A stretch of DNA of 64,000 nt, from assembly GCF_014205155.1 (NCBI RefSeq), contig NZ_JACHMX010000001.1, forward strand, positions 1,364,001 to 1,428,000. Reading direction: 5' to 3'. This DNA comes from Amycolatopsis umgeniensis. Lineage in GTDB: Bacteria > Actinomycetota > Actinomycetes > Mycobacteriales > Pseudonocardiaceae. Both the position numbers and the translations under genes were made by a program. This document shows positions 10,343-41,723 of the stretch, one piece after another (positions within the stretch are counted from its first letter, which is position 1; every line of letters starts with the position of its first letter). The notes under the pieces were generated by a model. The model was not told where the DNA came from, did not search any database, and saw only the letters and a program-made list of their open reading frames with translations.

Positions 10343-11946
10343 GCCGCCTCGAGCGCCAGGAACAGGTCGACCCGGTCCGCGGTCCGGCCGATGTCGCGGC
10401 CGGTCAGCTCGGTGACCTTCGCCAGCCGATTGCGCAAGGTGTTGACGTGCACGAACAGGGCCGCGGCGGTGGCCGCCCACTGGCCGTCGTGGTCGAGGAA
10501 CGCCCGCAGGGTCGTCTCCAGGTCGCCGTCGCGGACTCGGTCGTGCTCGCGCAGCGGACCGATCAGGGCGTCGGCGAAGGTGTGCCGCCACTGTTCGTCG
10601 TGCGACTCCAGCAGCAGCCGGTAGCTGCCCAGCTCGGCGAAACTCGCCGCCACCGGCCCGCCGCGCCTGCCGCGAAGCACCCGGCAGGCTTCGCGGCTGC
10701 GCGACAGCGGCTCGCGCAGCCCGGCCGCTCCGGACACCGGATCGGCCAGTCCGACGACCACGCGACCACCGGACAGCCGATGGGACACGGCCGCCGCCAA
10801 CCGGGGCGCGAAGGCGGCGGGCGACTGCCTCCCCGCGCGGAAGGGCAGCACCGCCACGACGTCCCGGCTGCCCGCCGCCACGACCGCGGGCAGTCCGTCC
10901 GCCAGCAGGAAGTCCGTCACGGCCTCCGCCATCCCCGGCGGGGTCGCGGTGGTGTCGTCGCCCGCGAACGCCAGCGCGATCACCGCCAGCGGACCGTCCG
11001 GGTCGACGCCGAAAGCTCGCAGCCTGCCGGGCACCTCCGCGACCCGCTGCGCGCCGGAGAGCACCATGTCCAGCAGTTCGACGGCGAACCGCATCTCGAT
11101 GGCCTGCACCGCCTGGTGCCGGGCCACTTCCAGGCTGAGGTAGCGGGCGGTCTGCTCCAGTGCGTCCCGCTCCTCCCCCGTCAGCTCCGCCACGGGACGC
11201 AGGCACAGGAGCGCGGCGTCCGCCTCGCCGATCGCGCCGACCGGGAACAGCGCCGCCCGCGTCCCCGCGCCGAGATCCGCCTCCAGCGGCGGCGGACGCC
11301 TGGCCAAGGCCTCCGCCGCGGCGCGCGACTGGCCGGCGTCCAGTTCGGCACCGGCGGACGCCAGTTCCCGGCCCATCCGGTCCACGACAGCCAGCGGCAG
11401 CTCGTGCTCACCGCGAAGGACGGCGAGCACCCCGGACGCCCCGGCGCCCCTCGACAGCGCCGAAGTCAGCTCGTCCCCTCGGCGCACCAACGACATCAGC
11501 GCGTTCTGCCGGTCCGCGGCCTGGATCGCGGCCGCGGCGCGCGTGACCGCCGTGAACGGCACCGCCACCGAGATCTCCAGCAGGGGCAGCCCGGCTTCCC
11601 GGCACGCCTCGGCGAGTTCCGGAGGGGTGTCGCGTTGCTCCACGCGCAGGCCGAAGATGATCCCCGCCGCTCCCGCGCGGACCACCCGCGCGACGAAATC
11701 CGCCGGGCCGGTGCGGTCCAGCCACAGGCCGTTGGTGAGCACGACCTCGTGCTCACGCACATACGGCGCGGGATCGGGCAGCTCGGTGTTGTGCACCCAG
11801 AGCACCTGCTCGGCCAGTGCCCCGTCGCGGCCGGGGACGACCACCCGCAGTTCGAGATCCGGGTCCGCGACCAGCGCCGCCAAGCTCAGCATGGCTGTGA
11901 ATATATCCAGCCCGACCGGACCTTTATGGACGATCAGCCATTTCAT
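10330..11946 (-). CDS. PucR-family transcriptional regulator
   Basis: A 538-residue activator of the PucR/CdaR type. The N-terminal PucR ligand domain covers about residues 20-130 (LELRVVVPGRDG, then LTNGLWLDRTGPADFVARVVRAGAAGIIFGL), a central GGDEF-like/degenerate region follows, and the C-terminal helix-turn-helix is LRAFLDHDGQWAATAAALFVHVNTLRNRLAKVTELTGRD. PucR proteins sense purine-catabolic or other nitrogenous ligands. It converges on the DUF1989-OYE-deacetylase operon and is the obvious candidate to control it, although no binding site could be identified by eye. Confidence 0.92.
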   Translation of the reverse strand: MKWLIVHKGPVGLDIFTAMLSLAALVADPDLELRVVVPGRDGALAEQVLWVHNTELPDPAPYVREHEVVLTNGLWLDRTGPADFVARVVRAGAAGIIFGLRVEQRDTPPELAEACREAGLPLLEISVAVPFTAVTRAAAAIQAADRQNALMSLVRRGDELTSALSRGAGASGVLAVLRGEHELPLAVVDRMGRELASAGAELDAGQSRAAAEALARRPPPLEADLGAGTRAALFPVGAIGEADAALLCLRPVAELTGEERDALEQTARYLSLEVARHQAVQAIEMRFAVELLDMVLSGAQRVAEVPGRLRAFGVDPDGPLAVIALAFAGDDTTATPPGMAEAVTDFLLADGLPAVVAAGSRDVVAVLPFRAGRQSPAAFAPRLAAAVSHRLSGGRVVVGLADPVSGAAGLREPLSRSREACRVLRGRRGGPVAASFAELGSYRLLLESHDEQWRHTFADALIGPLREHDRVRDGDLETTLRAFLDHDGQWAATAAALFVHVNTLRNRLAKVTELTGRDIGRTADRVDLFLALEAAQSG

Positions 11947-27462: not shown

Positions 27463-27990
27463 ATGGCAAGCGAGTTGCAGCGGCGCAAGGTCTCGAGCGT
27501 TTTCGCCGCGATGGACGTCGACGGCGACGGTTTCCTTCAGGAGCAGGACTTCCAGGCCTTGGCCGACCGCTGGGCGCGACTGCGCGGCCCCGGTGACGAG
27601 CGGCACCTGACCGGCATCATGCTGAGCTGGTGGACGACCCTGCTGGCGGCGTCGGATCTCGACCGCGACAACAAGGTCTCCCTCGACGAGGTCCTGCTGG
27701 TGGTGGACAAACTGCCGGAGACCCCCGAGGCCGTGACAGCGACCGCCGACGCGATGTTCGAGGCGATCGACGAAAACCGGGACGGCCTGATCTCCGCGGC
27801 CGAGTACCACCGGCTGATCGAGGTCTGGAACGGCCGCCCCACCGACACCGACGCCACGTTCCCGCTGCTCGACTCCGACGGCGACGGAATGCTGTCCCGG
27901 AACGAGTTCGCGGCGCTGTGGCTGGAGTTCTGGGCCGGTGACGACGCCGGGGCGCCGGGCACTCTCGTCTTCGGGCCACTCGCCGCCTGA
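27463..27990 (+). CDS. EF-hand calcium-binding protein (calerythrin-like)
   Basis: A 175-residue protein with four EF-hand loops at about residues 18-29 (DVDGDGFLQEQD), 65-76 (DLDRDNKVSLDE), 103-114 (DENRDGLISAAE) and 137-148 (DSDGDGMLSRNE). All have acidic residues at positions 1, 3 and 5; the first ends in Asp rather than the usual Glu. The layout matches actinobacterial calerythrin-type calcium buffers or sensors. No signal peptide or membrane segment. Monocistronic; role unknown. Confidence 0.93.
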   Translation: MASELQRRKVSSVFAAMDVDGDGFLQEQDFQALADRWARLRGPGDERHLTGIMLSWWTTLLAASDLDRDNKVSLDEVLLVVDKLPETPEAVTATADAMFEAIDENRDGLISAAEYHRLIEVWNGRPTDTDATFPLLDSDGDGMLSRNEFAALWLEFWAGDDAGAPGTLVFGPLAA

Positions 27991-28082
27991 CACCCGCCCC
28001 TCGGGAGACGGTCTCGTCCTGTCGCTGTGCCTTCCCCTCGCTCTGTGACATCGTGGAGGGGGCAGCGTGGGAGGAGCTGATC

Positions 28083-28775
28083 GTGGCGTTTCGAGCCGTC
28101 TTCGGAGCCAAGAACCGGCGTCACCCGATACGGGTCTCGTTCAGTGCCCTGCTCAGGGTGACCGACGACGATCGGTACGTCCTGTTCGACTCACCCGCGA
28201 GACCCAGTTCGTACGGACCGCCCGGCGGTGTGCTCAAGATCCACCCTCCCGCCGTGCGTATCCTCGAATCCTGGGGATTCCAGCCCGATCGCACCGTCGA
28301 AGGCGCCAACCGGATGAAAGGCGACCTCCGGGGAATACTGCCGGCGGACTCGTTGCGCGCGTTCCAGGAATGGTTCGACACCGCCGCGTACCGGGAGAGC
28401 GCCACCGAATGCCTGCGCCGGGAATTGCGGGAAGAAATGTCCGAGGTCGGCCTCGGCTCCCCGGGATCGTCCATCGGGTCGCTGACCTTCGACCCGATCC
28501 GGACCGTCCGCGAAGGGCCCAGCGAGGTGCCGGGGAAGCCGTACCTGCAGCTCCGGAACTTCGAGGTGTACGAACTGGCGATGCGGACGCCCGCGGCCAT
28601 CCGGCTGCGCCGGGACCTGGTCGAGGCCGGTCACGACGAAGAGCGGCCGGGGGTGATCTGCGCGGGCTTCGCCGACATCGCGCACGGCCGCCTCGGCCGC
28701 GCCCTCATCGCCCCGCAGAGCGCGTTCCTCGCCGGATCGACGAGGCTCACCGCCGACCTCCCCTCGCTCCGGTGA
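28083..28775 (+). CDS. NUDIX-like protein resembling the SMODS-associated NUDIX family
   Basis: A 230-residue protein. It opens with a strand pattern (PIRVSFSALLRVTDDDRYVLFD) and YGPPGGVLKI, and has a partial Nudix box, RRELREEMSEVGL near residue 125, that keeps the R-E-x2-E-E-x2-G core but lacks the leading Gly. This is the layout I associate with NUDIX domains linked to SMODS nucleotidyltransferase conflict systems, where they may sense or cut a nucleotide. The GTG at 28083 follows GGGAGGAG by 6 bases and is preferred to a GTG at 28053. It overlaps the cyclase-like gene by 4 bases. Family assignment is from memory and moderate. Confidence 0.6.
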   Translation: MAFRAVFGAKNRRHPIRVSFSALLRVTDDDRYVLFDSPARPSSYGPPGGVLKIHPPAVRILESWGFQPDRTVEGANRMKGDLRGILPADSLRAFQEWFDTAAYRESATECLRRELREEMSEVGLGSPGSSIGSLTFDPIRTVREGPSEVPGKPYLQLRNFEVYELAMRTPAAIRLRRDLVEAGHDEERPGVICAGFADIAHGRLGRALIAPQSAFLAGSTRLTADLPSLR

Positions 28776-29899
28776 GCGGCACCGGTTCCGCGGCGGCGGA
28801 CCTCGTCTGCGGCGCCTCGCGCCTCGGCGGCGTCCGGTTCGACCTCCCGCGGACACGTCCGGTGCCCCCTCCCGCCGACCCGGCCGCCGACATGGGGTAC
28901 TTCGAGGTACACGGCAGGTTCTCCCTCGAACAGGCGCGGAGCGACCTGCCGTTCGTGGCGGCACATCTCGTCATGGGTTTCGACGATCCTCGCGTCCGGG
29001 TGCCGGAAGCGGCGGGTGAGGCCGTCGCGCCGGGCGGTCCGATGGCGGTCGGCGAACCGCCGGGGGGCTGCGGCTGGCTGCTCGGCGATCCACTCGGGCT
29101 CACGCCGATACCGCCTGCCGGCACGGTGCGGGCGACGCTGTGCGCCCCCGCGGATCTGACGACGTTGTCGGGCTTCGTCCGGCTGGACGCCACGGTCCTG
29201 ACCGGTCGTGGCCGTCCGCGCCGCGCGCACGGGGGCTGCCGGCCGATCCGGTTCGAAACCCGGCCACCGGAAGGCTGGGCACCCACCGTCGCCCCGGGCG
29301 CCGCGACTCCCGCGACAGGTTTCGCGACACCGGCCGTACGGCTGTGCGTCGCGGTGGACACCGAGTCCTACAGCCGGTTCACCACCAGCGAAGCCGCCCG
29401 GTCACAGCAACGGCTCCTCGACGCGCTCGTCCACGCCAGGGGGCACGCGGGCCTTCGCGAGGCGGACGTCGACCTCCAGCATTCCGGTGACGGGCAGTTC
29501 GCGATCCTCCCCGCCGGAATCGACGAGTCGGTGGTCATCCCCCGGTTCGTGACCGGCTTGCGGACCGCGCTCGCCTCGACCAACGCTGACCTCAGCGCGC
29601 ACGCCCGGCTTCGGCTGCGCGTCGCCCTTCACCGCGGGCATGTGGCCGCTGGGGTCAACGGCTGGATCGGGTACGCGCCGATCGCCGTGCACCGGTTGCT
29701 CGACAGCGCGCAGGTCCGCGCCGCGCTCCTGCGGGAAAGCGGCGCGGACTTCGCCCTGATCGTTTCGGAAGTGCTGTTCACCGACGTCATCGCGGACGGC
29801 GCGGCGTCACTGGACCCGGCGAGCTTCGACCCCGTCGAGGTACGGATACCGGAGAAGAACTTCGCCGAACGGGCCAGGGTGTACGTGCCGGGATGCTAA
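28772..29899 (+). CDS. Protein with C-terminal class III nucleotidyl cyclase-like domain
   Basis: A 375-residue protein. The N-terminal half (to about residue 185) is unrecognised, rich in Gly and Pro. The C-terminal half looks like a class III cyclase homology domain: CVAVDTESYSRF with the first metal Asp, HSGDGQFAILP with the second (GDG), RLRLRVALHRGHVAAGVNG, then APIAVHRLLDSAQVRAALL and LIVSEVLF. Both metal aspartates are kept, so activity is possible. The GTG start overlaps the NUDIX-like stop (GTGA). I infer that the pair makes and senses or removes a nucleotide signal; this has not been shown. Confidence 0.62.
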   Translation: MSGTGSAAADLVCGASRLGGVRFDLPRTRPVPPPADPAADMGYFEVHGRFSLEQARSDLPFVAAHLVMGFDDPRVRVPEAAGEAVAPGGPMAVGEPPGGCGWLLGDPLGLTPIPPAGTVRATLCAPADLTTLSGFVRLDATVLTGRGRPRRAHGGCRPIRFETRPPEGWAPTVAPGAATPATGFATPAVRLCVAVDTESYSRFTTSEAARSQQRLLDALVHARGHAGLREADVDLQHSGDGQFAILPAGIDESVVIPRFVTGLRTALASTNADLSAHARLRLRVALHRGHVAAGVNGWIGYAPIAVHRLLDSAQVRAALLRESGADFALIVSEVLFTDVIADGAASLDPASFDPVEVRIPEKNFAERARVYVPGC

Positions 29900-29927
29900 G
29901 CGCTCATCCCGGCACGCCCCTCCACCC

Positions 29928-31181
29928 TCAGCGTTCCTTGCGGAACAACACCGGGACCTCCCCGCCGCGGCCGTGGACGTCGCCTGCCATCATCGACGCC
30001 CTGGCGATCCCGTAGGCCGGTTCGATCTCCAGTCCGGCAGCCAGCGCCTGGTAGAAGCCCACGCTGAAGTCCATCGCGGACTGGTCCCCGATCCAGGTGC
30101 GCATCCCGATCACGTAGTCGATGTGTTCGGACAACGCCTTCGCCATCGTCTCGCTGTAACACGCGTTGACGAGGACGCACTCGACCGTTTCGTTCAGCTC
30201 CGCGAACAACGCGGCGACCCCGGCCACCGGAAGCGGCCGTTCCCCGCCACCCGCGTCCTCGGCGAGGAACCGGCCGTCCTCGTCACCGTGCCCGGAGAAG
30301 TGCACGATCCTCGGCTTGTGATCGAGCAACGCCTGCGTCAGATCCCTCGGCTGCAGAGCACCGTGATCGTCCAGTTCGAAGCGATCGCGATGGGCGCCCT
30401 TGCGCAAGGTCTCTTTGATGTCCCGGACTTCTCTCGCCAGCCGGAGCCGCTGCTCGCTGTCCGGATTCGCGGAGAGATAGAGGATCCGGATCTGATCCGG
30501 GCCCGCCTTCTCCGCGTGGCTGACCTGCACCGTGAATCTCCTGGAGATCTCGGCCCGCTGCCCGGCCTTGTCGGTACAGCGCGCCGAGATGTGGACAGGA
30601 ACCTCGCGACCGGCTTCCCTTGCCAGCACGTGACAGTCGAACGGTTCCTTGGCACCGGGCGGCACGCTGCCCAGTTCGACGAAAGGCCGATTGGGGTCCA
30701 AGGCGAACGGGCCCTTCAAGGTCAGTTCGCCCCAGCTGATCGGCTGGGTGCCGATGTTCGTCAAGGACCCGCGCAGGATGTCCCATTCCCCATGGGCCAG
30801 CACCGGCGTGGCGAGCGAGATCTCGAAGCGCGGCGGCGGCACCTTGATCTCCTCGACCGCGGGAGCGACCAGCAGCGGCGCGGTGAAATCCGGGACACGG
30901 CAAGCCACGCCACGGAAGTCGCGGTACGAGAAGCTCGCGCCCGCAGTCCAGGAACCGGCTCTCAAGGGGCGGACCCGGACCACGGCGCTCCGGCTTTCCC
31001 CCGGCGCCAGACTGGGCACCTTGAGCTCCTTGCTCCCGCGCACGGCCGAAAACGAAGGCGGCAGCCTGAGCGTGAACACGATGTTGGTGCAGACGCGGTC
31101 GCCGTTGTTGGCCAGCAGGAGGGTGAGGTCGGTCGCCCGGCCGGCGTTCAGCTCGCCGGCGAGCACCTCCGCCGTGATCAT
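29928..31181 (-). CDS. CHAT-domain (caspase-like) protease with N-terminal beta-sandwich domains
   Basis: A 417-residue protein. Residues about 1-115 and 118-225 look like two Ig/CARDB-like beta-sandwiches (SLAPGESRSAVVRVRPLRAGSW; LGSVPPGAKEPFDCHVL). From about residue 230 comes a CHAT peptidase domain (IRILYLSANPDSEQRLRLAREVRDI) with the catalytic dyad His298 (VHFSGHGDE) and Cys341 (VNACYSE). Such caspase-fold proteases are effectors in bacterial conflict and cell-death systems. It is last in the leftward run, 2 bases after the small zinc-finger gene. It converges with the cyclase-like gene across 28 bases. Confidence 0.88.
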   Translation of the reverse strand: MITAEVLAGELNAGRATDLTLLLANNGDRVCTNIVFTLRLPPSFSAVRGSKELKVPSLAPGESRSAVVRVRPLRAGSWTAGASFSYRDFRGVACRVPDFTAPLLVAPAVEEIKVPPPRFEISLATPVLAHGEWDILRGSLTNIGTQPISWGELTLKGPFALDPNRPFVELGSVPPGAKEPFDCHVLAREAGREVPVHISARCTDKAGQRAEISRRFTVQVSHAEKAGPDQIRILYLSANPDSEQRLRLAREVRDIKETLRKGAHRDRFELDDHGALQPRDLTQALLDHKPRIVHFSGHGDEDGRFLAEDAGGGERPLPVAGVAALFAELNETVECVLVNACYSETMAKALSEHIDYVIGMRTWIGDQSAMDFSVGFYQALAAGLEIEPAYGIARASMMAGDVHGRGGEVPVLFRKER

Positions 31182-31183
31182 AC

Positions 31184-31423
31184 TCAGACCCCTTCGAAGA
31201 ACGTCGCCCGTGAATGGTGCGCCTGGACGCAGGTTTCGCAGTGCACGGCCGACCGGATCACCGAGACCGGCGCGTCCGAACGAGGTTCCGCGAAGCCCTC
31301 GTCGGTCTCCACCACCTTCTGATGCCTTCCGCACAGCGGTTTGCCGCAGTGATGACAGACCGCGTCGATCACCACCTCTTCCTCGCCCTCGCGGGTGTTG
31401 CAGTCACCGCATTTCCAGACCAT
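31184..31423 (-). CDS. Small zinc-finger protein, copy of the finger in the adjacent membrane protein
   Basis: A 79-residue protein with Cys5-x2-Cys8, Cys23-x2-Cys26-x4-Cys31-x2-His34 and Cys62-x2-Cys65. The core VCHHCGKPLCGRH is nearly the same as LCHHCGRPLCRKH in the protein encoded next to it. The pattern is like a B-box or LIM-type finger. The gene sits 1 base after the membrane protein gene and 2 bases before the CHAT gene, so it is co-translated. It may act as a soluble adaptor that competes with or bridges to the membrane-bound copy (inference). Confidence 0.8.
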   Translation of the reverse strand: MVWKCGDCNTREGEEEVVIDAVCHHCGKPLCGRHQKVVETDEGFAEPRSDAPVSVIRSAVHCETCVQAHHSRATFFEGV

Positions 31424-31424
31424 C

Positions 31425-33350
31425 TCAGTCCTCCTCGTCCCATCGGGAATGCTGGTCCGCCCCCGCCAGTTCGCTGTCGAGTTCGGCGTCCAGCTGCCGG
31501 AAGAGCTGTTCGGAAATGCGCCCGTCCATCACCGCGTCCCTGAGATCCTTCCTGCGCCGTTGCAGCTCCGAGGTCCCGGTGGTCCGCTCGGTGTCGTCCG
31601 GCCCGCTGTGCCGGGGCCGGTACGGGGCTTCCGCGGCCCGGCCGTTCGGTTCGGGCCCCTTGCGCAGCTCGAGTGTCTCGCTGACGATGTCGGTGAGGCT
31701 GTGCCAGACGGTTTTGATGCGGTCTTCCATTTCCTTGGTCGCGTAGGCACCGTTGACCGAAAGCCGCACCTTGCTGCTGCCCGCGACAGCGTGGATGTCG
31801 CCGCCGTAGATCTCGTCGCCCGCCAGCCCGACGTAGAAGTCGACGGGGTACACGCCTTCGTAGAGCCGGCCGCCGACGTCCCAGGCCCGTTTGAGGGCGT
31901 TCACCTGGTCCCCGTTCCGGGGAGAGTGACCGACGACGTATTTGACGTAGTAACCGTTCTCGCTCATCGCGTCCGTCAACGCGATCAGCGTCGAGTGATC
32001 CGGGATCACCCCCGGGAAGGAGACGCTTTCCGGACGCTCGGTGAGATCGTCCTTCTTCTGATCCGGTACGACACGCCTGTCCTGATAACGCACCCCGGAC
32101 AGGCTCAGCGAAAGATCGGCGGTGACCTCGGTCTTCACCGAACTGTCCCGGTTCTCCTTCTTCAACGGCCCGCCCATCGGCGGATAGAAGTCGATGTTCT
32201 TGATCCCGGAAAGGGCACCGTTGAACGAGACCACCATGGAACCGGTGATCACGTCGCTCAGCTCGATCGTGTTCTCGAACCGGACCGACAGGGTGAGCCG
32301 GTGGTCGGCGCCTTCGCCGAGCGAAAGCTGCTTCCATTCGATCAGCCGTCCGCCGGTGACCGGATCCGCGTGCCTGCCCACGGTCGGGTACTCGGAAGCG
32401 GATTCGACGTTCCCCCAGCCGACGGGGACGTACAGGGTCAGCCGCTCCACGCGATCGGCGTGGAGACTCGCCTCCTCCGAAAGCCAGTCGCCCAGCCATT
32501 GCAGGTCCAGTTGCAGGGCCCGCTGATCGGATTCGGGAACCAGGGCCGGGGTCAGCCAGAGCGGGATCTCGTGGATGTCGAGGCCACCGAAAATGCGGTG
32601 GGACAGCCTGAACCGCCATTTGGCACCGGCCCGGCTGTCCTGTGCGGACAGGAAGGGATGCTCGCTCACGCGACCGGCCAGCGGCAGGACCGGCGGGGCG
32701 TACCGCGAATCGGCGAACTGGAGCCCCGCGCGGCCGGTCAGGACCGCGTATCCGGCGGAGAACTCGACGTCCTGCTCCGAGCCGAGCCGGAACTTCTCCC
32801 GGTAGGTGCCGAGACGGTTCTGATCCGTCCGGCCGAAGGTCATGTCGACGGTGATCTCGCCTTCGACCGGGGTCATCGAACTGTGGTAGTTCCCGCTCTC
32901 GTCGAGGGTGAGGTTGCCCCGGACGACCTCGCGCACCCGCACGGAATCGATGCTCGGCTCGACCGGCAGCGGCGGTCTGCTCGCCACCGCGGCGTTGAAC
33001 CGGCTGCGGTTCTCGTGCCAGGCGAGTGCTCCGCCCGCCAGCCCGGCCAGGAGCAGGATCAGGCCGCCGGGCACCCAGAGGAACATGAGCACGACGCCCA
33101 GCGCGGCCACCGCCGCCCCGGCCTTGATGAACCGGACGATCGGCGGTTTGACGACGTGTTTGTGCTCTTCACAGTGCTGGGGAACCGAATCCGGGTTTCC
33201 CAGGTCGTCGAATTCACTGGTGACGAAGTCCTTCGAGCTGTGCTTCCGGCACAGCGGACGGCCACAATGGTGGCACAAGGCCGCGATTTCCCGCGAACCA
33301 CAGCGATGACACCGGGGGCGTGGTGCGCGGGCCCGGATCTCGATCGACAT
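31425..33350 (-). CDS. Membrane-anchored zinc-finger protein of unknown function (conflict locus)
   Basis: A 641-residue protein. It has an N-terminal zinc finger (Cys14, Cys17, Cys26, Cys29, Cys34, His37, Cys60, His63), two adjacent membrane helices at about residues 73-111, then a large soluble part of mostly beta structure. From about residue 290 the soluble part resembles the product of the gene upstream (VERLTLYVP, RLIEWKQL, GVIPD..., SKVRLSVNG). A charged helical tail (about 590-641) ends DQHSRWDEED. I do not know the family. It is 25 bases after the upstream gene and 1 base before the small zinc-finger gene. Confidence 0.78.
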   Translation of the reverse strand: MSIEIRARAPRPRCHRCGSREIAALCHHCGRPLCRKHSSKDFVTSEFDDLGNPDSVPQHCEEHKHVVKPPIVRFIKAGAAVAALGVVLMFLWVPGGLILLLAGLAGGALAWHENRSRFNAAVASRPPLPVEPSIDSVRVREVVRGNLTLDESGNYHSSMTPVEGEITVDMTFGRTDQNRLGTYREKFRLGSEQDVEFSAGYAVLTGRAGLQFADSRYAPPVLPLAGRVSEHPFLSAQDSRAGAKWRFRLSHRIFGGLDIHEIPLWLTPALVPESDQRALQLDLQWLGDWLSEEASLHADRVERLTLYVPVGWGNVESASEYPTVGRHADPVTGGRLIEWKQLSLGEGADHRLTLSVRFENTIELSDVITGSMVVSFNGALSGIKNIDFYPPMGGPLKKENRDSSVKTEVTADLSLSLSGVRYQDRRVVPDQKKDDLTERPESVSFPGVIPDHSTLIALTDAMSENGYYVKYVVGHSPRNGDQVNALKRAWDVGGRLYEGVYPVDFYVGLAGDEIYGGDIHAVAGSSKVRLSVNGAYATKEMEDRIKTVWHSLTDIVSETLELRKGPEPNGRAAEAPYRPRHSGPDDTERTTGTSELQRRRKDLRDAVMDGRISEQLFRQLDAELDSELAGADQHSRWDEED

Positions 33351-33375
33351 CTTTCGGCTGTCCTCTCGTACTGGT

Positions 33376-34959
33376 TCAGCGGGCCCTGGCGAAACGTTCC
33401 CAAATGATGGCGTGCAGGGCGTTCATCTCCCGGGTGATCGCCTGGCTCGTACCCGGCAGCTCGCCGGAGATGAACAGCAGGATCTCGCCACTCGCGAGGA
33501 TCTTCTTCTGGCTCTGGCCGCCGCGATGGACTCGTCGCTCGGTGTCGTACATCATGCCTTCGACGAACAGTCTCAGCTTCATCCTCTCCGGTCCCTCGGA
33601 GCGATCCGCCGTGCCTTCCCATTGCTGCTTCTTGCCGTTCAGCTGCTTCGCTCCGAAGTGGACGGTGAACCCCCTCGTCCGGAGCGCGTTCTCGATGTCG
33701 GCGATCCGGGCCTCGTCCGGGATCACGTCGTCGAAGTGCAGGTGCTGATGCGGCCTCAGCGGGCGGCGCGCGAAGGCGTCGTAAAGGACGAGCCGGAATC
33801 GCGAAGTGATCCAGCTGACCTCCTTGTGGCCCTTGCGGTCACCCTGGTGCCGGGTGTCTTCCTGCTCGTCGCCGTCACGTTCGTCCATCCGGCCGGTACC
33901 GTCGAAAAGCCTGCTCCGCGTACCCGACACCAAGAAGCCGGGGAGCTTGACCTCGACGCGGCCGTCCAAATTCTTCTGTTCATAGAGCTCACCTGGTTGT
34001 TCGATCTTGAGGACCATCGGTTCGGTGACGAAGACGAGTTCGTCCTTGCGGCCTTTCGCCGGGGTGTCCTTGCGCATGGGGACGTTCCGCCACTCGATGC
34101 TCCGGTCCACGGGGTTGTAGGTGATCGGGACGGGATCGGCTCCCCGGTCGGGAAAGACGAGACTGAGCGCGTGCAGGGACGTGATCGACGGCCAGTCGAT
34201 CGAGACCCGTTCGACCACCGGACGCGGCGGGCGCCGTTCCACGGCCGGCCGCGAAGGATTCTGTTCGTCGTTTTCCTCCTTCTTCCACGGCAGGACCACC
34301 CTGACCTGGATCACCAGCCAGAGGAACGATTGGAAATTCGGTTGCTGACTGAGTTTCGACAGATCCGCGGTATCCGTGCCGCTCATCGAAAACGCGTGGA
34401 TGTCGCTGATGGTGTCCGGGTCGAGCAGATGCGCCGAGACCCCGATCGGGATCAGTTCGGGCGGCGTGGGCGTGTAGTCGTGGCTGATGAAGCAGGCGTG
34501 CCTGTCGGTGCTCAACTCCTCGACACCGCCCGGGCTGCCCCGTCCGGACACCGGTACCCGGATCGGGAACGAACCGTAGGAGTCGTCGAGACCGAGCCTG
34601 TCGGCCAGATCGGTTTCCTGGTGGCCCGCGAAGACCACGTGCCCGATCAGGGCGCTGACCGCCTCGTCGGGCGACTGCCTGAGCAAGGCGGCGGCGACGT
34701 CGTCGCAGGCCTCACGGGTGAAATGGTCCGCACCGTCGAAAGGGACGACGATCTCGAGCTGCCCGGTGGGGTCTTCGGCGGCACCGTTCTCCGAGTTGTG
34801 GGAGATCTCCTGCTCGTAGTAGTACCTCTCGGTGACCCGGACGGTCTCGGGACGGGCACGGGCGAAGACCTCCGTCCCCGGCCCCGGCCCCGCTCGCCGG
34901 GGATCGAACTTGCTGACCACCTTGCGCATGATCTGGAAGCTGTCGCGGGGAGCCGGCAT
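33376..34959 (-). CDS. Large soluble protein of unknown function, paralog of the membrane protein
   Basis: A 527-residue protein without signal peptide or membrane segment. I do not recognise the N-terminal half (VRVTERYYYEQEI, LEIVVPFDGADHFTREACDDVAAALLRQ, HACFISHDY). The C-terminal half (about 240-520) runs parallel to its neighbour: VERVSIDWP, RSIEWRNV, DDVIPDEARIADIENALRTRGFTVHF and GEILLFISGE. A very charged insert (about 365-395, DERDGDEQEDTRHQGDRKGHKE) breaks the similarity. ATG at 34959 with AAAGGG before it; an upstream in-frame extension is less likely. First of four tightly spaced genes ending with the CHAT protease. Confidence 0.75.
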   Translation of the reverse strand: MPAPRDSFQIMRKVVSKFDPRRAGPGPGTEVFARARPETVRVTERYYYEQEISHNSENGAAEDPTGQLEIVVPFDGADHFTREACDDVAAALLRQSPDEAVSALIGHVVFAGHQETDLADRLGLDDSYGSFPIRVPVSGRGSPGGVEELSTDRHACFISHDYTPTPPELIPIGVSAHLLDPDTISDIHAFSMSGTDTADLSKLSQQPNFQSFLWLVIQVRVVLPWKKEENDEQNPSRPAVERRPPRPVVERVSIDWPSITSLHALSLVFPDRGADPVPITYNPVDRSIEWRNVPMRKDTPAKGRKDELVFVTEPMVLKIEQPGELYEQKNLDGRVEVKLPGFLVSGTRSRLFDGTGRMDERDGDEQEDTRHQGDRKGHKEVSWITSRFRLVLYDAFARRPLRPHQHLHFDDVIPDEARIADIENALRTRGFTVHFGAKQLNGKKQQWEGTADRSEGPERMKLRLFVEGMMYDTERRVHRGGQSQKKILASGEILLFISGELPGTSQAITREMNALHAIIWERFARAR

Positions 34960-35068
34960 CAAGAACCCTTTCGGCGCGGTCTGCGCGTAACGCCTTCGCC
35001 CGGACGGACGCGCCCGGACGCGGGGCAAAGTCCATCGTTTGGCGGTGGCGGAACAATGACGGCCCCAC

Positions 35069-35095
35069 TGTGTGACACAACGCGCCGGGTGACCC
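35069..35095. promoter_or_regulatory. Palindromes between crp/fnr-like gene and the four-gene operon
   Basis: Within the 140-base gap, TGTGTGACACA (35069-35079) is a perfect odd palindrome and GGGTGACCC (35087-35095) another. TGTG/CACA arms are of the kind Crp/Fnr proteins bind, and such a regulator is encoded next door. The first shares the core GTGACAC with the palindrome in the promoter of the STAND gene at 41052. Confidence 0.45.
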
Positions 35096-35099
35096 CGTA

Positions 35100-35798
35100 C
35101 TAGTACGGGATCTCGTCAGAAAGTTCGCCGAACCGCCGTAACCTGCTCAGATCGGTGACCAGGACGCGGCGATAGAGCCTGTCGAGCGCGCCCGCTTCCT
35201 CCAGGAGCCTGAAGGCTTTCTCCACCGAACTCAGGCCGGTTCCCGCCAGTGAGGCGATGTCCTTCTGGGACAACGGGATTCCGAGACCTCGGCCGGTCAT
35301 CGGCGATTCGCCCCATCTGCGCGTGACCTCCAGCAACGTCCTCGCGATCCGGACCGGTGCCGGGCAAGCGATCAGATCGACCCCTCGGCGGTCCGAGCCG
35401 CGCAGGCGTTCGCTCAGCACCTTCGCCAAGGCAAGGCACGTCTCCGGGCTGCGTTCGAGGAACTCCACCAGATCCGGGCTGTGGATCACTTTCGCCTGCA
35501 CCGGGACGCACGCGATCACATGCGCCGAACGGGGGCGCCGTTCGAGCGCCGCCATTTCCCCGAGCAGGTCGCCCGCTCCCCGGACGGCGATCACCACGTC
35601 CTTGCCGCGTTCGGTGTCGACGACGATCTTGACCAGACCGGCGAGGATGAGGACGGTGTGCTGCGCCGACTCGCCTTGGCGGACGATACGTTGGTGCGCC
35701 TGGTAGTTGATCGGCATACCGAGAGCGAGCAGTGCTTCTTTGTTCCGGCGGCCGAGCAGGCCGAGCAGGGAGCCGGGTGGCCATTCCTCGACGTTCAC
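35100..35798 (-). CDS. Crp/Fnr-family regulator (first copy)
   Basis: A 232-residue regulator. It has a cyclic-nucleotide-binding-like beta-roll (residues about 10-120: RIVRQGESAQHTVLILAGLVKIVVDTERGKDVVIAVRGAGDLLGEMAALERRPRSAHVIA), a long dimer helix and a C-terminal winged helix (IPLSQKDIASLAGTGLSSVEKAFRLLEEAGAL). The start is uncertain: GTG at 35798 (then NVEEWPPGS) fits the family, GTG at 35807 is also possible, and no strong ribosome site is seen. It is 86 bases after a second Crp/Fnr gene and 140 bases before the operon ending in CHAT, which it may control. Confidence 0.88.
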   Translation of the reverse strand: MNVEEWPPGSLLGLLGRRNKEALLALGMPINYQAHQRIVRQGESAQHTVLILAGLVKIVVDTERGKDVVIAVRGAGDLLGEMAALERRPRSAHVIACVPVQAKVIHSPDLVEFLERSPETCLALAKVLSERLRGSDRRGVDLIACPAPVRIARTLLEVTRRWGESPMTGRGLGIPLSQKDIASLAGTGLSSVEKAFRLLEEAGALDRLYRRVLVTDLSRLRRFGELSDEIPY

Positions 35799-35884
35799 CG
35801 GCAGCACTTTGCCGGTTGTGTTCCCACCGGACCCCGTGCTGGCACGGGATTCGGCCTGCTCGTTTCGGCGGGCGGTGCCCTCTT

Positions 35885-36580
35885 TCAGGAAGCGGGCAGG
35901 ACGGCGGCGGCCCGCAGCGCGGGCAGGTCGACGATGGTCATCCGCCGGTAGCCGGTGTCGAGGATCGCCCGGTGCCGCAACTCGGTGAGCGATTTGTGCA
36001 CGGTCGGCTCGGCGGCGCCGATCAACGCGGCGAGTTCGGGCTGGGTGAGCGGGAAACCGATCTCCCAGCCGCGCGAAGTGAGGCTGCCGTAGGTCGAGAC
36101 GAGGGCGACGAGGACTCGCGCCAGGCGCACCGCGACGTCGTAGCCGCTGAAGTCGATCCGCCGATCCGTCGACCATCTCAGCTTGGCCGCCATCAGCCTG
36201 CTGACCGCCACCGCCGCGTCCGGGTGCTCCACGAGAAAACGGTGGAACTCGGCCCGTGGCGCCACGCGGGCGGACAGCCGTCCGACCGCCGTCACGGTGG
36301 CCGAACGCGGTTCCCCGTCGAAACCGGCCAGTTCGCCGATCAGATCACCGGCACCCCGGATCGCCAGCAACGCCCGGCCACCGTCGGCGGTGGTCGCTGT
36401 CACCTTGGCACAGCCTTCCAGCAGGAGAACGACGAAAGTCGTCGATTCCCCTTCGCGCATCAGCACTTCCCCAGGCCGGAAGGCTCGTCCCGTCCCGATC
36501 CGCACGAGTCCGGCGGAGGTGCCGGGGTTCACCGCGGCGCACAGTCCTCGGTCCGGCGGGATCGGAGCGCGTACGGTCAT
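35885..36580 (-). CDS. Crp/Fnr-family regulator (second copy)
   Basis: A 231-residue regulator of the same build as the next gene but clearly diverged. The beta-roll runs over about residues 25-130 (GEVLMREGESTTFVVLLLEGCAKVTATTADGGRALLAIRGAGDLIGELAGFDGEPRSATV), then the dimer helix and winged helix (FPLTQPELAALIGAAEPTVHKSLTELRHRAIL). ATG at 36580. There are no cysteines for an Fe-S cluster, so it is not an oxygen-sensing Fnr. Two such regulators in tandem between the STAND gene and the CHAT operon suggest graded or dual-signal control of the locus. Confidence 0.9.
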   Translation of the reverse strand: MTVRAPIPPDRGLCAAVNPGTSAGLVRIGTGRAFRPGEVLMREGESTTFVVLLLEGCAKVTATTADGGRALLAIRGAGDLIGELAGFDGEPRSATVTAVGRLSARVAPRAEFHRFLVEHPDAAVAVSRLMAAKLRWSTDRRIDFSGYDVAVRLARVLVALVSTYGSLTSRGWEIGFPLTQPELAALIGAAEPTVHKSLTELRHRAILDTGYRRMTIVDLPALRAAAVLPAS

Positions 36581-36672
36581 CGCCGGTCCCGGCCCTTCCC
36601 GGATTTCCGATTTCACGCCAGTAAGCTCGCGGGAAATAGCGTGCGCGTTACGCCCCGCCCCGTTCGGCCCAA

Positions 36673-39600
36673 TCAGAAGGGACGGGTCAGAAGTTTTCCG
36701 TGCTTCCGTTCCGCTTCGTGGGTTAGTTCTTCGAGGAGTGCCCGTCTTTCCGGTCTCATTGTCGGTACGGCGAGGAACCGTAGCAGTCTCGCCGCGATTT
36801 CCCCGGGGTCGCGCGATTCGGCCGGGGTGCACGGACCGGGCACCCAGTGCAGGATCGCCTGACGGGAGGCGGTGTCCAGCGGCCCGCCGTCGCCGCGCAC
36901 CGCGAGGAGCAAGGGTTCCCAGTCGCCCAGGAAAGCCAGCCCCGCCAAGCGTCCCGCTTCGACTGTCGGATGCAGCCCCGTGACGTCGAAGCCGGTGAGC
37001 ACGCGGTGCGCGTCCGCGTATTCGCCGGTTTCCCGCGCGAAGTGACCCAGCGCCGCCAGAACACGGGCGTGCGGAGCGATTTCGACGATTCCGTGACGCC
37101 CCGTCGAAATCGTCTCCGTCGCGGTGGCGAGCGTACGGTTTTCGGCGATTTCGATCACGTCGGGAAGCGCATTCGTCAGCCTCGCCGCCGCGACGGCGAG
37201 TGCCCACTCCCCGTCGTCGTCACGCCGCTCGAGTACGGCCTCACAGGCGGCCGCGCTCAACGGCAGCGCGGCGTGACAGGTTCCGTCCCATGAGGGCGCG
37301 TACAGCGCCAGTTCCCCGATCGCGCCGTCGACACCGGCGACGAGAAGGTGGTCGAGTTCGTCCGGCGCCGGGCTGGTGTGGGCCAGCATCGTGCTCCACG
37401 GCCAGAACAACCGTGCCGCCAGCTCGCGTTCACGGAGGACTCGTGCCGCGGTCCGGGACACGGCGAATCCCCGTCGAGGATCGGCTCGCACCACGGCGTG
37501 GCACAGCGCGGCCAGCCCTTCGATCCGGTCGGCCTCGACGACGGGGGCGAGTTCGGTGACCAGCTTCTCCACCTGATCGACGGCGATGGGCGAGGCCGCC
37601 GCGTTCGCGGCGATCAGCAGCAGATGCAGCGGTGACGTGGCCCGGACGGGGAGGACCAGCGCGTCGCGGTCCTGGGAAGCGCCGGAAAGCATCTGGTGGG
37701 CCAGAAGGACGGCTTCGGACTCGGGTAGTGCCGGATATCGGGAAAGCGCGTCCGGAGGCAGCGGTTCGGACGGGCCCTCGGACAGCAGATCACCGACTTC
37801 GTAAGCGATCCCATAGGAGAACCGCCTGCTGATCAGATCCGCCGGGGAGTCCTTCCACTTCAGCGACTTCACCCGCAGTTCGTTCGCCTTCCGGATCCCC
37901 CTGCTGCCGGACATCTTCGGAAGCCGCTCTTCGAGATCGCGAAGACCGCGTGCCGCCAGCTCGGCCCGTACCTTGCGCAGCCGGGGCGGCACCAGGACCG
38001 AGAGCCGGCGCAGGACGCCATCGGCCGCGAGAGCGAGCTGCGAATCGTCCGCCTCGAGCAAATCCGCCAGGAGCACCTCGAGCCCCCTGATCCGCGCGGC
38101 GTCGATCACCGCGATGGCCGCGATCAGGACTTCGGCCGGGTACTGCCCCGCCAGGAGTTCACCGAGGCCGTAGCGGCCCCAAACGCCGAAGATCGGGTCG
38201 GAAGGCGCCGACCTGGCGCGGAGTTCGAGTACTTCCAGGATCTCGAGCCTGGTCGAGGCGGGGGTCCATGGGTCGTGGAGAACCTCGGAAAGTACTTGGC
38301 GGGCGGGCGGGATCCCGGTCAGCAGCAGGGCTTCCGCCACCGAACGATGCGTATGGGAACCCGCCCGGCGATCGGTGAGCGACGCTTTCCACTCCGGCAC
38401 CTGACCGAGCGCCAGCACCGGCCGGAACGCCAGCATCCTTGCCGCGAACCGCGGATCCGCCGAGACCACGCTCCGCGCCATCCGGTCCACGACGGCGTCC
38501 GGTGTACTCGGCGACCTCGCCGCGAGGACGCAGATGTCACGCCACGCGAAGGTCCGCGCCCGATCCTCGGCGAAGTCACCGGACAACGCCCGCGTGGCGA
38601 AGTAGTCGCGCTCGGCGAGCCTGAGGAAGCGCACGCCCTCCGGGCCCGATTCCAGGATTCCGCGCGCGAGCAGGCCGCCCAGCTCGAAACCCGGCCGGAC
38701 CGGCTCGCCGGTGTCGACGGCCGCGGCCGCCACCGAGGCCAGCGCCTTGATCTCCTGTTCGGTCAGATCACCCGCGAAATAGTGCTCGTACAGGGCACCG
38801 ATCGACACGGAAGGCTGACTTCCCGCCGCGGCCTCGGCGAGCATCGCGACCAGCCCCGGAGGAGCTCCCCCATCGGCGCGATGCGTCTCGGCGAGCGTGG
38901 CCGCCAGCTCTTTCCGCATGCTCGCCTGGAGCGGACGTCTGCTGAGGAACCAGGTGATGTCCTGTTCGTCCCAGAGGGCCAACCTGAGCACCGGGAGCCC
39001 GAACGCCTCCGCCGCACGGCCACCGTCGCGCGCGGCGACCGTCAGGCGGACCCGGGGGAAGCGGGTGAGCAGTGAACGGGCCCACTCCGCGATCCGGTCG
39101 TAGCCCGCGGCCGGGATCTCTTCGAGACCGTCGAGCAGCAGGTGGACGGCGCCGAGCACAAGCGCTTCCCGGGGTGTTTCCAGGCTCGGCCCCGCCGGAT
39201 CCGCCAGGAGTTCGGCCGCTGTCGTCAGCACGGGGAACCGCAACGGGCCGGAGCCCGGCCCGGGTCCGGCGATGTCCAGGGCGCGCCAGTAGGCCACTTC
39301 CCTGAGCAGACGTGACTTCCCGGTCCCCGGTCCGCCGGTCACCACCGCCGAGTCCTCGTGATCGGCCGCCAGAGGGAATTCACCGTGGTCGCGGGAAAGC
39401 CGGACGATCAGCTCCCGCGCCCGCTCCAGATCACGCGTCCGGATGAACCGATCACGCAGTTCGTCGACCGCCGGCGCCTCCAAACCCGGACTCCGCGCGT
39501 CCACGGCTGTCAGCAGTGCCGTCAGCATCGGCGCGGCCCCCGGCCGGGCGAGGTCGACTTCCGGGGAGATCCTGCTGAACAGTTCGGGAAGCAGACTCCA

Positions 39601-41022
39601 AGAGGTGAAAGGGTTCTCTGCCGTCAGCCACTCCGTGGCCACCGCGGCGACGGCGTGCGTCGCGCGCAACGCGTGTTCGGGATGCGATGCCCATTTCACC
39701 GTGCGGTACGCCGACAAGTGCAGCACCGCCGCGTAGTCGAGCCAGGCGCCGTCAAGCGGGTAGTGGCGCTGGGACGCCGACCGCACCTCGGAGAGGATCT
39801 GAAAAGCGACGAGTGCCCGGCCTTCGAAGAACTCCTCGAAGATCCGGTCGAGTTCGGCGACGTCCGTCGCCAATGGCCTGACGCGGGTGGAGAGCGCGAG
39901 CAAGCGCTGGATCCGGACGAGGTCGGCGTACGGGAGTCCGGCGAAGACATCGCGCATCAGGCCGACCTCGAGCCACGCCGCGTCCGACAGCACCGGACGG
40001 TCCTCGGCCGTCCGCGCGAAATCTATCAGCACCGGACGGCCTTCGACGCACATCACGTTGCGGGCGTTGAGATCACCGTGCACGACTCCGCGCACCCTGC
40101 CGAATCGTGGCTCGGTCAGCGCGGGCCGCAGCCCATCGGCGGGATCGGCCGTCCGCACCCCGTCCGCGACGACCGAGCGCTCGTCCCTTTCCAGGGAAAC
40201 GAAAGCGCCGTCGAGCGCGTGACGCTGTCCGGAAAACCTGCTCCGGATCACCCGTCCGGAAAGGGCGGAACCGTCGTCGTCCCCCGACAGTTCGACCCGG
40301 ACTTCGGGATTTCCGGAGTCCGCGATCCGCAGTTCCTGCCCGGGACCGAACTCACCGTTGCCGAGAGAGACTTCGAGAACGTCCTCCAGATAGATCGGAT
40401 CTCCAAGCACCTCGCCGGGACTGAGGACGAGATCGGGCCCCAAAGTCGGGTTGAGATCCCGCAAGCTCCGCGAAGAAAGGACGTCCCTGCGATTGTGGAA
40501 AGGGGTGGCCATCTGAGCGAAGAGATCCCGGATCACCTGCCGGACGGCCGAGACCGAGGCGGGATCGGCGAGCGCCGTCCGGACGAGGTCCTCCAGGGTC
40601 GGCACCGTGGTCCTCGGCTTGCCCGCGTAGTCGGCGACGTGCGAATACACGACGGCCTCGATCTCACCGTCGCGCTTCCCGCCGATGTCCGAGGCCCCTT
40701 GCGTCGCCTCTTGAATGGGAGCGCACACCGCGGCCGGATACGGGACGAGCAGCCGCCGGTAATTGTCGAACTCGGCCGCCATTTCCTCGGCGCGGCCGAT
40801 CTTCACCACCCGCTGCCGGTATTCCGCGCCCGCCAGCAAGGCGATCTCGAGGACCAAGGCCCCGCTCCGGCCACCGTCCATCACCCTGGTGATTTCGATC
40901 CGTTCGACCGGTCCCTGCCAGCCTTGCCCGGATCGGCCGATACTGTGCAACGCGTGCCAGATCATGCCTTTCCGGCCCGGCGGTATTTCGACGTTTCCCG
41001 AGAAGATCTCGACGTCGGCCAC
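36673..41022 (-). CDS. Kinase-like (TCAD9-type) and STAND/NACHT NTPase fusion protein
   Basis: A 1449-residue protein. Residues about 20-340 resemble the APH-like kinase fold, with VVKIG near residue 72, HGDLNARN at 315-322 and LIDFA around 333, the type found as ternary-complex-associated domain 9 in conflict systems. A P-loop NTPase follows: Walker A GGPGTGKS at 563-570 and Walker B LLLDGLEEIP near 630, as in NACHT/STAND switches. From about 900 on come alpha-helical, HEAT/TPR-like repeats. The GTG at 41022 follows GGGGAGG by 5 bases; an extension to 41238 would cover the divergent gene. It is probably the sensor/switch of the locus that controls the CHAT effector. Confidence 0.85.
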   Translation of the reverse strand: MADVEIFSGNVEIPPGRKGMIWHALHSIGRSGQGWQGPVERIEITRVMDGGRSGALVLEIALLAGAEYRQRVVKIGRAEEMAAEFDNYRRLLVPYPAAVCAPIQEATQGASDIGGKRDGEIEAVVYSHVADYAGKPRTTVPTLEDLVRTALADPASVSAVRQVIRDLFAQMATPFHNRRDVLSSRSLRDLNPTLGPDLVLSPGEVLGDPIYLEDVLEVSLGNGEFGPGQELRIADSGNPEVRVELSGDDDGSALSGRVIRSRFSGQRHALDGAFVSLERDERSVVADGVRTADPADGLRPALTEPRFGRVRGVVHGDLNARNVMCVEGRPVLIDFARTAEDRPVLSDAAWLEVGLMRDVFAGLPYADLVRIQRLLALSTRVRPLATDVAELDRIFEEFFEGRALVAFQILSEVRSASQRHYPLDGAWLDYAAVLHLSAYRTVKWASHPEHALRATHAVAAVATEWLTAENPFTSWSLLPELFSRISPEVDLARPGAAPMLTALLTAVDARSPGLEAPAVDELRDRFIRTRDLERARELIVRLSRDHGEFPLAADHEDSAVVTGGPGTGKSRLLREVAYWRALDIAGPGPGSGPLRFPVLTTAAELLADPAGPSLETPREALVLGAVHLLLDGLEEIPAAGYDRIAEWARSLLTRFPRVRLTVAARDGGRAAEAFGLPVLRLALWDEQDITWFLSRRPLQASMRKELAATLAETHRADGGAPPGLVAMLAEAAAGSQPSVSIGALYEHYFAGDLTEQEIKALASVAAAAVDTGEPVRPGFELGGLLARGILESGPEGVRFLRLAERDYFATRALSGDFAEDRARTFAWRDICVLAARSPSTPDAVVDRMARSVVSADPRFAARMLAFRPVLALGQVPEWKASLTDRRAGSHTHRSVAEALLLTGIPPARQVLSEVLHDPWTPASTRLEILEVLELRARSAPSDPIFGVWGRYGLGELLAGQYPAEVLIAAIAVIDAARIRGLEVLLADLLEADDSQLALAADGVLRRLSVLVPPRLRKVRAELAARGLRDLEERLPKMSGSRGIRKANELRVKSLKWKDSPADLISRRFSYGIAYEVGDLLSEGPSEPLPPDALSRYPALPESEAVLLAHQMLSGASQDRDALVLPVRATSPLHLLLIAANAAASPIAVDQVEKLVTELAPVVEADRIEGLAALCHAVVRADPRRGFAVSRTAARVLRERELAARLFWPWSTMLAHTSPAPDELDHLLVAGVDGAIGELALYAPSWDGTCHAALPLSAAACEAVLERRDDDGEWALAVAAARLTNALPDVIEIAENRTLATATETISTGRHGIVEIAPHARVLAALGHFARETGEYADAHRVLTGFDVTGLHPTVEAGRLAGLAFLGDWEPLLLAVRGDGGPLDTASRQAILHWVPGPCTPAESRDPGEIAARLLRFLAVPTMRPERRALLEELTHEAERKHGKLLTRPF

Positions 41023-41051
41023 CTGAACCTCCCCGGCGAGGCGCCCCTGCG

Positions 41052-41066
41052 TAGGGTGACACCCTA
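41052..41066. promoter_or_regulatory. Perfect 15-base palindrome in a divergent promoter
   Basis: TAGGGTGACACCCTA is a perfect odd palindrome in the 79 bases between the STAND gene and the divergent small gene. Each arm begins TAGGGT, a typical actinobacterial -10 hexamer, so it may hold two back-to-back -10 elements, an operator, or both. Confidence 0.6.
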
Positions 41067-41101
41067 GCGAGATCCTGGCGCCCGGCAACACCGGAGGTGG
41101 C

Positions 41102-41467
41102 ATGTCGCAAGACCCTCGTCGTGAGGAATGGGCGGCCGTGTGCACCCGGCTGCGACGGCTCGCCGGTGACGCGAACTGGTTTTCGCTCCGTCCGGATTTC
41201 GACGACTTGACGGCGTCGACCCGCACCGGGGAAGACACCCTGGACGGCTGGCACGCCCTCGAGGCCGAGCTCGCCCGCCGCGCCGAGGTGGAGCTGGACC
41301 ATGTCGTCCGTCACGGCAAAGGCGGCGACGCGCACGCGTATCGAGGTGACGGCTCGCAGACGAGACACGGCTGCCCGCGCGAGATCTGCGATCGCGTCGC
41401 TTGGGCCCCGGCGGGCGCGCCGCCGGAATGCCTTCTGTTCGGTGCGCCGATGCACGAGCTGCCCTGA
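41102..41467 (+). CDS. Small protein of unknown function, divergent from the STAND gene
   Basis: A 121-residue soluble protein, first residues MSQDPRREEWAAVCTRLRRLAGDANWFSLRPDFDDL. The C-terminal third has Cys91, Cys96 and Cys110 with nearby histidines (HGCPREICDRV, PECLLFGAPM), a pattern that could bind zinc and that I recall from C-terminal ends of vWA-MoxR-associated conflict proteins. ATG at 41102 with GGAGG before it. Its shared promoter palindrome ties it to the STAND gene. Function unknown. Confidence 0.68.
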   Translation: MSQDPRREEWAAVCTRLRRLAGDANWFSLRPDFDDLTASTRTGEDTLDGWHALEAELARRAEVELDHVVRHGKGGDAHAYRGDGSQTRHGCPREICDRVAWAPAGAPPECLLFGAPMHELP

Positions 41468-41723
41468 CCCCCGCGCTGCCCTTTCGGTCAGTACCGTCGG
41501 CCGTGCGGTCCGAAAACCGCCGCACCGGGCCGAACCACGTTAGCGTCGGAGAAGCGGCCGGCGACGTCCTGGATTCGGTGTTTCTCCACAACCCCCCGGT
41601 GAAAGCACCGCACCGGACGGCGACCGGTCCCGCGCAGACGGATGTGCGCCGGCTGACCGCCGGCGCGCATCCGGTCGCGGCTTTCGGGCCGACCCACCGT
41701 CCATAGGGGCCAGAACCCGTCCG

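Follow-up and report, generated by a model that had tools for sequence, protein, structure and literature searches.

We analyzed a window of 64,000 nt from Amycolatopsis umgeniensis (GCF_014205155.1, NZ_JACHMX010000001.1, positions 1,364,001 to 1,428,000 of the forward strand; coordinates below are window positions unless a locus is named), which contains a run of ten genes at 28083 to 41467. An earlier note on this DNA had described the run as a multi-gene conflict-type locus, and codon-usage gene models confirmed every gene at its place and returned the same outer ends (28083 and 41467). The ten genes form one accessory island (27991 to 41467), a block that is absent from the same site in three relatives. 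Four adjacent genes on the minus strand make up a core, which encodes an effector protease, a small zinc-finger protein, a Zn-finger/transmembrane (TM) protein, and a soluble protein. The remaining genes form an accessory layer around it.

The core effector (29928 to 31181, minus strand, 417 aa) has a NEW3/Ig-like N-terminal part and a CHAT caspase-like protease domain, with Pfam matches to CHAT (3.3e-9, above the curated cut-off) and NPCBM_assoc (5.9e-6). Next to it lie the small Zn-finger protein (31184 to 31423, minus strand, 79 aa), which shows a CHHCG motif in a 14-member alignment, and the TM protein (31425 to 33350, minus strand, 641 aa). The former is a paralogue of the latter's N-terminal Zn finger, and the two share a phmmer cluster. 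We set the start of the TM protein to 33350 because this start is common to relatives. Its layout comprises the N-terminal Zn finger, a hydrophobic region, and, by predicted fold, a mu-homology-like domain and a platform-like (helix-grip-like) domain, with an uncertain SHOCT-like tail. The soluble protein (33376 to 34959, minus strand, 527 aa) is likewise predicted to combine mu-homology-like and platform-like domains.

Domain calls were made with Pfam, NCBIfam, and PADLOC models against the ten island proteins. For the three constant core proteins, no model of these collections exceeded its cut-off, with PADLOC itself giving none; the one weak match among them, to PADLOC Csf1 (E 0.032), was taken as chance. 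For the cyclase-like protein of the accessory layer, the 121-residue protein at the island's end, and one large core protein, Pfam gave no match; the small Zn-finger protein and the other large protein had only sub-threshold matches. Across the island, the conflict-type parts that had been claimed were recovered as Pfam TCAD9, CHAT, and Sa_NUDIX, plus a NACHT-like nucleoside triphosphatase (NTPase). TCAD9, CHAT, Sa_NUDIX, and NACHT are described as conflict-system domains (excerpts of PMC7159879 and PMC10910872).

The limits of the island were mapped by blastn of window positions 24001 to 46500 against the flanks of three genomes, G085 (locus L032), G201 (L033), and G211 (L034), and by reading the junction sequences. 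In the island-free G085, similarity breaks off at 27997 and picks up again at 41463, with an overlap of 12 bases. In G201 and G211, which are also island-free, the left stretch ends at 27991, and the right one starts at 41663 and 41671, respectively. The window's flanking genes lie close together in these island-free relatives, and another genome, G244, carries the island together with the window's left flank.

The flanks have features of their own. Gene g31 (27511 to 27990), at the left junction, has by eye the look of an EF-hand calcium-binding protein, and its stop codon falls at the island junction. Near the island's left end, G085 carries about 1.1 kb of extra DNA (L032, ~5573 to 6690) between the neighbors of window positions 27368 and 27378. 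On the other side, a LuxR-type gene (41757 to 44351) adjoins the island; it is intact here and is matched over about residues 458 to 765 only in five relatives (G211, G244, G252, G124, and G217), suggesting that this flank has its own deletion history.

Within the genus, the TM protein was found in 7/80 genomes, and the TCAD9-NACHT protein and the full-length cyclase-like protein of the accessory layer occur in the same seven (kinship ignored). Given this co-occurrence of three island genes and the three empty sites, the ten genes are more than a chance grouping. Scattering of the genes among related genomes, which had been named as the outcome that would speak against a single locus, was not seen within Amycolatopsis: the set stays together in these seven genomes, and the gene order is kept within the genus.

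A scan of 84,980 species genomes with three strict peptide patterns returned at least 14 loci, which is a lower bound. Four further distinct loci of the genus or family came only from homology searches of genome samples, giving 19 distinct loci with the window (L026, L027, and L030 were left out of the counts as copies of L011-L013). The actinobacterial loci include seven from Amycolatopsis (the window among them) and one each from Kibdelosporangium, Actinomycetospora, Trebonia, and a Streptosporangiaceae metagenome-assembled genome (MAG). The remainder belong to Asanoa, two Dactylosporangium, Symbioplanes, an actinobacterial MAG, a Crocosphaera MAG, a Scytonematopsis MAG, and a Candidatus Atribacteria MAG. 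A family-wide sample matched in 5/200 genomes, from which G044 and G077 were dropped as unsafe (E 4.0e-4 and 8.3e-4, over about 60 residues). Broader samples matched in 1/396 genomes of the phylum and 2/397 of the order, with few candidates scored per genome and hence low sensitivity.

The core keeps one order on one strand in all 19 loci: soluble protein, Zn-finger/TM protein, small Zn-finger protein, and Ig-domain effector. The small Zn-finger gene is present in each of them, in five at the level of the open reading frame (ORF) only. The accessory genes occur in 8/19 loci, namely the seven from Amycolatopsis and that from Kibdelosporangium. Their arrangement is identical in the seven Amycolatopsis loci (the L025 stretch ends before the end gene), and in Kibdelosporangium the TCAD9 gene and the end gene are relocated to the opposite side.

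The effector is the variable member of the core. Its N-terminal Ig-like part aligns across the 19 loci, and its C-terminus is CHAT in 16/19, with the HxxGHG and NAC motifs that hold the catalytic His and Cys. On these sequence features, the effector qualifies as a putative CHAT protease. In Actinomycetospora (L023), the C-terminus is instead TIR_2 (7.4e-14), and in the Crocosphaera MAG (L016) and the Atribacteria MAG (L021) it matched no family. Constant sensors with changing effectors are given as a mark of conflict systems (excerpts of PMC7159879), and a swapped effector C-terminus behind a constant N-terminal part is typical of them. The locus combines constant sensor genes, a variable effector domain, and a patchy block, as in conflict systems with swappable effectors; the variability comes from 3/19 loci and one identified domain.

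Two side observations concern the effectors. Directly upstream of the Actinomycetospora core and on the same strand lies a 1163-residue patatin-like phospholipase (L023, 4317 to 7808; Patatin 7.8e-11, DUF3376 1.7e-10), which is possibly a second effector. Of six effectors scanned, that of Scytonematopsis (L020, 12443 to 13438) alone gave, in its Ig-like part, a sub-threshold match (E 0.004) to Alpha_adaptinC2, which represents the Ig subdomain in adaptin appendages; we treat it as a lead only.

The accessory layer opens at the left with the NUDIX protein (28083 to 28775, plus strand, 230 aa; Pfam Sa_NUDIX PF18167, 6e-35). Its gene overlaps the cyclase-like gene by 4 bases and is present in 8/8 loci with the accessory layer (the L029 copy at ORF level). 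The cyclase-like protein (28772 to 29899, plus strand, 375 aa), which we take from its motifs to be of class III, has an N-terminal half of its own and a cyclase-like C-terminal half. In 8/8 aligned homologues, both metal-binding Asp positions are retained, and the usual purine-contacting Lys and transition-state Asn are substituted, which makes cyclase activity doubtful. The earlier assignment as cyclase-like rests on the motifs with both Asp, but two usual catalytic positions are replaced, and the protein is probably degenerate. Besides the seven full-length copies, 12 more genus genomes match the C-terminal part only, with best matches at 35 to 42% identity. The first ~185 residues have full-length partners in island genomes only and could form a separate sensor domain.

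Further to the right, two Crp/Fnr regulators are encoded on the minus strand, one of 235 aa (35100 to 35807; cNMP_binding 5.4e-18, HTH_Crp_2 1.1e-12) and one of 215 aa (35885 to 36532; cNMP_binding 6e-19, HTH_Crp_2 2.5e-14); since they carry DNA-binding domains, they probably act on transcription. They are followed by the largest protein (36673 to 41022, minus strand, 1449 aa), which joins a kinase-like TCAD9 domain (Pfam, 1.2e-81) to a NACHT-like NTPase and a long C-terminal region. The NACHT-like match falls under the Pfam cut-off (E 0.0011, 19.3 versus 26.7 bits), with a Walker A motif seen by eye. A small divergent gene (41102 to 41467, plus strand, 121 aa, no family) closes the island at its right junction; it has homologues in six other accessory-layer loci (the L011 copy at ORF level), and a seventh stretch, L025, stops short of the position.

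These accessory genes were the center of the mechanism proposed in the earlier note, in which the cyclase/NUDIX pair supplies a nucleotide signal that, with a STAND switch, forms the core control of the CHAT protease, together with two Crp-like regulators. Within Amycolatopsis, the genes always accompany the core, in the same 7/80 genomes for the three genes examined, as that mechanism would predict. However, Crp, TCAD9, NUDIX, and cyclase-like genes were not found in the 11/19 core-keeping loci outside Amycolatopsis and Kibdelosporangium, although five of these 11 stretches span 6 to 16 kb and distant copies could escape. The loss of two usual catalytic positions in every aligned cyclase-like homologue and the probable transcriptional role of the Crp proteins also speak against it. 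We therefore rejected cyclase/NUDIX signaling as the system's center and regard such a control scheme as quite improbable.

The two large core proteins are mutually related, with an hhalign probability of 87.9 (E 3.2e-6) for the whole proteins and 52.1 for the domain region alone. The membrane link that had been suggested for the locus holds through one of them: a hydrophobic stretch is present in 10/10 TM proteins examined, and the structure model of the TM protein shows two helices. Basic residues flanking the hydrophobic region fit a hairpin, which would place the domains inside the cell.

In structure searches, mu-homology domains (MHDs) came first for both proteins. With the TM protein model, they filled all of the best 50 of the 53 rows at E ≤ 0.001, and with the soluble protein model, 8/10 rows at E ≤ 0.001; VIA rows for the two separately modeled proteins numbered 48/50 and 44/50. 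The predicted folds reproduce the two-subdomain beta-sandwich and strand order of the MHD, with near-complete coverage in sequence order. In profile alignments, the conserved Trp and Ser-Gly of both families fall on corresponding mu2 positions. A viral structure library gave no confident match to the soluble protein model. At membranes, MHDs bind short peptide motifs or protein partners, and the PDB titles of the matched mu-homology entries show complexes with peptides.

Based on the gene set, the island, the conserved core, the effector swap, and the predicted folds, which were observed or computed, we infer complex formation, peptide gripping, a cytoplasmic location, activation, and a role in defense. 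We assign a probability of about 0.5 to the reading that the locus is an effector-coupled conflict island, probably anti-phage or programmed-death, whose heart is the four-gene core acting as an adaptor-like membrane complex that controls the CHAT effector. The membrane-anchored and soluble proteins, with their mu-homology-like and helix-grip/platform-like domains, would form this complex at the cytoplasmic face of the membrane and grip short peptide motifs or protein partners, such as a product of a phage or a membrane protein of the host that has been disturbed. As a copy of the anchor's Zn finger, the small Zn-finger protein may link or restrain the effector, which would be docked through its constant Ig-like N-terminal part. 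Recognition would then free the CHAT protease to cleave its target and halt or kill the cell. In Amycolatopsis and Kibdelosporangium, the second layer (the TCAD9-NACHT protein, two Crp regulators, the NUDIX/cyclase-like pair, and the small end gene) may add regulation and a second check.

Several results weigh against this reading. On the effector side, the constant Ig-like domain is weakly matched in L021 and L023 (phmmer, 20.9 and 16.9 bits), and of the three non-CHAT effectors, two come from single MAG contigs and have C-termini that matched no family. The TM protein of the TIR locus L023 is spread over two reading frames (~10001 to 11789), reflecting either a broken gene or a sequencing error. 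At the membrane, hydropathy shows one peak in 8/10 TM homologues and two in 2/10, so the hairpin, and hence the cytoplasmic side, is uncertain. For the mu-homology resemblance, TM-scores are modest (query-normalised ≤ 0.31, target-normalised ≤ 0.52). No mu-homology family appeared among the 12 Pfam families matched by 44 soluble-protein members (E ≤ 10) or in the best 25 of 38 Pfam families for 37 TM-protein members, and PDB sequence-profile searches with both families gave no mu-homology chain. By family sequence profile, the proteins do not qualify as MHDs. Among the ten island proteins, Pfam also detected no adaptin N-terminal region or sigma chain.

Over 16 profile pairs with mu1, mu2, mu3, and delta-COP, hhalign probabilities ranged from 0.1 to 21.3%, with the best at 21.3% (P 0.001) for the diverse TM profile and 2.3% (P 0.021) for the diverse soluble profile. 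Against a 39-sequence mu-rich profile, local mode gave 0.1% and 0.7%, and global mode 0.0% and 0.1%. In shuffle controls on four pairs, the real score was equaled by 0, 0, 0, and 4 of 60 column shuffles and by 3, 1, 0, and 10 of 60 shuffles in 12-column blocks; reversed profiles scored lower in 4/4. We regard sequence-level homology to MHDs as suggestive only, and what we claim is a likeness of predicted fold. The low hhalign probabilities, the block shuffles, and the modest TM-scores also suit a second explanation, in which the core is real and the mu-homology layout arose by convergence, from a tandem pair of beta-sandwiches with a helix-grip domain behind it. The proteins would then be new Ig-type sensors unrelated to coat adaptors, exerting the same control over the effector. 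This has a substantial chance of being correct, if short of an even one. Only tentatively do we propose that bacteria hold true mu-homology relatives, two per operon and each with a platform-like domain behind it, like that of adaptin appendages, and that these serve not as coats but as a membrane surveillance complex arming interchangeable effectors (CHAT, TIR, and others).

A further explanation is that the core serves regulated proteolysis or the response to envelope stress, with adaptor-like proteins that monitor membrane proteins and a CHAT protease that cleaves a regulator during stress or development. In tblastn searches, the soluble protein gave no match either on plasmids (queries from two loci) or in phages (query from one locus), which counts against the conflict reading and in favor of this pathway. 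A membrane-anchored sensor and Crp regulators would suit stress sensing, and CHAT proteases can be specific signaling proteases. In the Crocosphaera MAG (L016, 4514 to 8332), the core is preceded on the same strand by genes for a histidine kinase and a MotA/ExbB-like protein, both of which fit such a pathway, and for two more proteins that have no Pfam match at E ≤ 0.01. However, the locus is rare and patchy, is gained or lost as a block, is spread over distant phyla, and exchanges its effector for TIR, a pattern seldom seen in housekeeping pathways. We therefore consider a stress pathway less likely than not.

The closest eukaryotic likeness is to the MHDs of the clathrin adaptors AP-1 to AP-4, COPI delta, and the FCHO/SGIP1 muniscins, with which the core proteins share the predicted two-part beta-sandwich and the Trp and Ser-Gly positions. 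Unlike these, the island proteins are bacterial, lack a significant Pfam or PDB sequence match, are fused to a Zn finger and TM region or to a platform-like domain, and are linked to CHAT or TIR effectors. The island does not qualify as an AP/COPI coat complex, as no adaptin-like large or sigma small subunit was detected by Pfam among the ten island proteins, to which this search was confined. Asgard archaea are reported to carry the full set of five functional domains that Pfam defines for AP complexes, including the mu C-terminal domain (excerpts of PMC10307638), so the domain has been reported outside eukaryotes. Those AP/COPI homologues, in contrast, are archaeal and described in terms of vesicle trafficking, and effector proteases, TIR, and conflict operons do not come up in the excerpts.

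Among published loci, the archaeal Meth_adaptin and Halo_adaptin ESCRT loci come nearest to the island's protein pair. They encode two adaptin-appendage-like proteins that combine Ig and TBP/helix-grip domains; one carries a Zn ribbon and one a TM link (excerpts of PMC10936438). These loci center on the Vps4 ATPase and ESCRT-III, with no CHAT or TIR effector mentioned in the excerpts, whereas the island's ten proteins match no such families. MoxR-vWA (VMAP) ternary systems of multicellular bacteria resemble the island in having a constant core with interchangeable effectors and include caspase-like, TIR, NUDIX, cNMP cyclase, and Crp-like parts (excerpts of PMC7159879), and TCAD9 is described as associated with them (a figure legend of PMC10910872). 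Membership was rejected, since Pfam found no MoxR, vWA, or VMAP among the ten proteins; they contain TCAD9 as an associated domain only, and the constant part is adaptor-like. CBASS and Pycsar share Sa_NUDIX and cNMP-binding domains with the island, and PADLOC models of their effectors match the NUDIX protein as well as both Crp proteins in their cNMP domains. Here too, membership was rejected: there is no CD-NTase match, the cyclase-like protein has no PADLOC match, and the cNMP proteins carry HTH instead of toxic domains.

A search of open-access full text returned no bacterial mu-homology-like protein and no such operon, an absence that is weakly tested because Greek-letter spellings and subscription papers escape it. 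Within the same literature, the earlier impression that no described system has this gene set was borne out. As the three constant proteins also have no models above cut-off, we count the core as new and the outer layer as made of known conflict parts.

Mu-homology domains of vesicle coats have been reported for eukaryotes and Asgard archaea, and adaptin-appendage domains for archaeal ESCRT loci, in the excerpts cited above. If the reading is true, an operon of Cyanobacteria, Actinobacteria, and other bacteria that couples such predicted domains to a caspase-like or TIR effector would be a new class of conflict system. It would also offer a new lead on the origins of coat adaptors and tie membrane-coat proteins to bacterial self-defense. 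Were the bacterial domains true relatives, as tentatively proposed above, a bacterial immune sensor and the part of eukaryotic coats that grips cargo would have a common ancestor.

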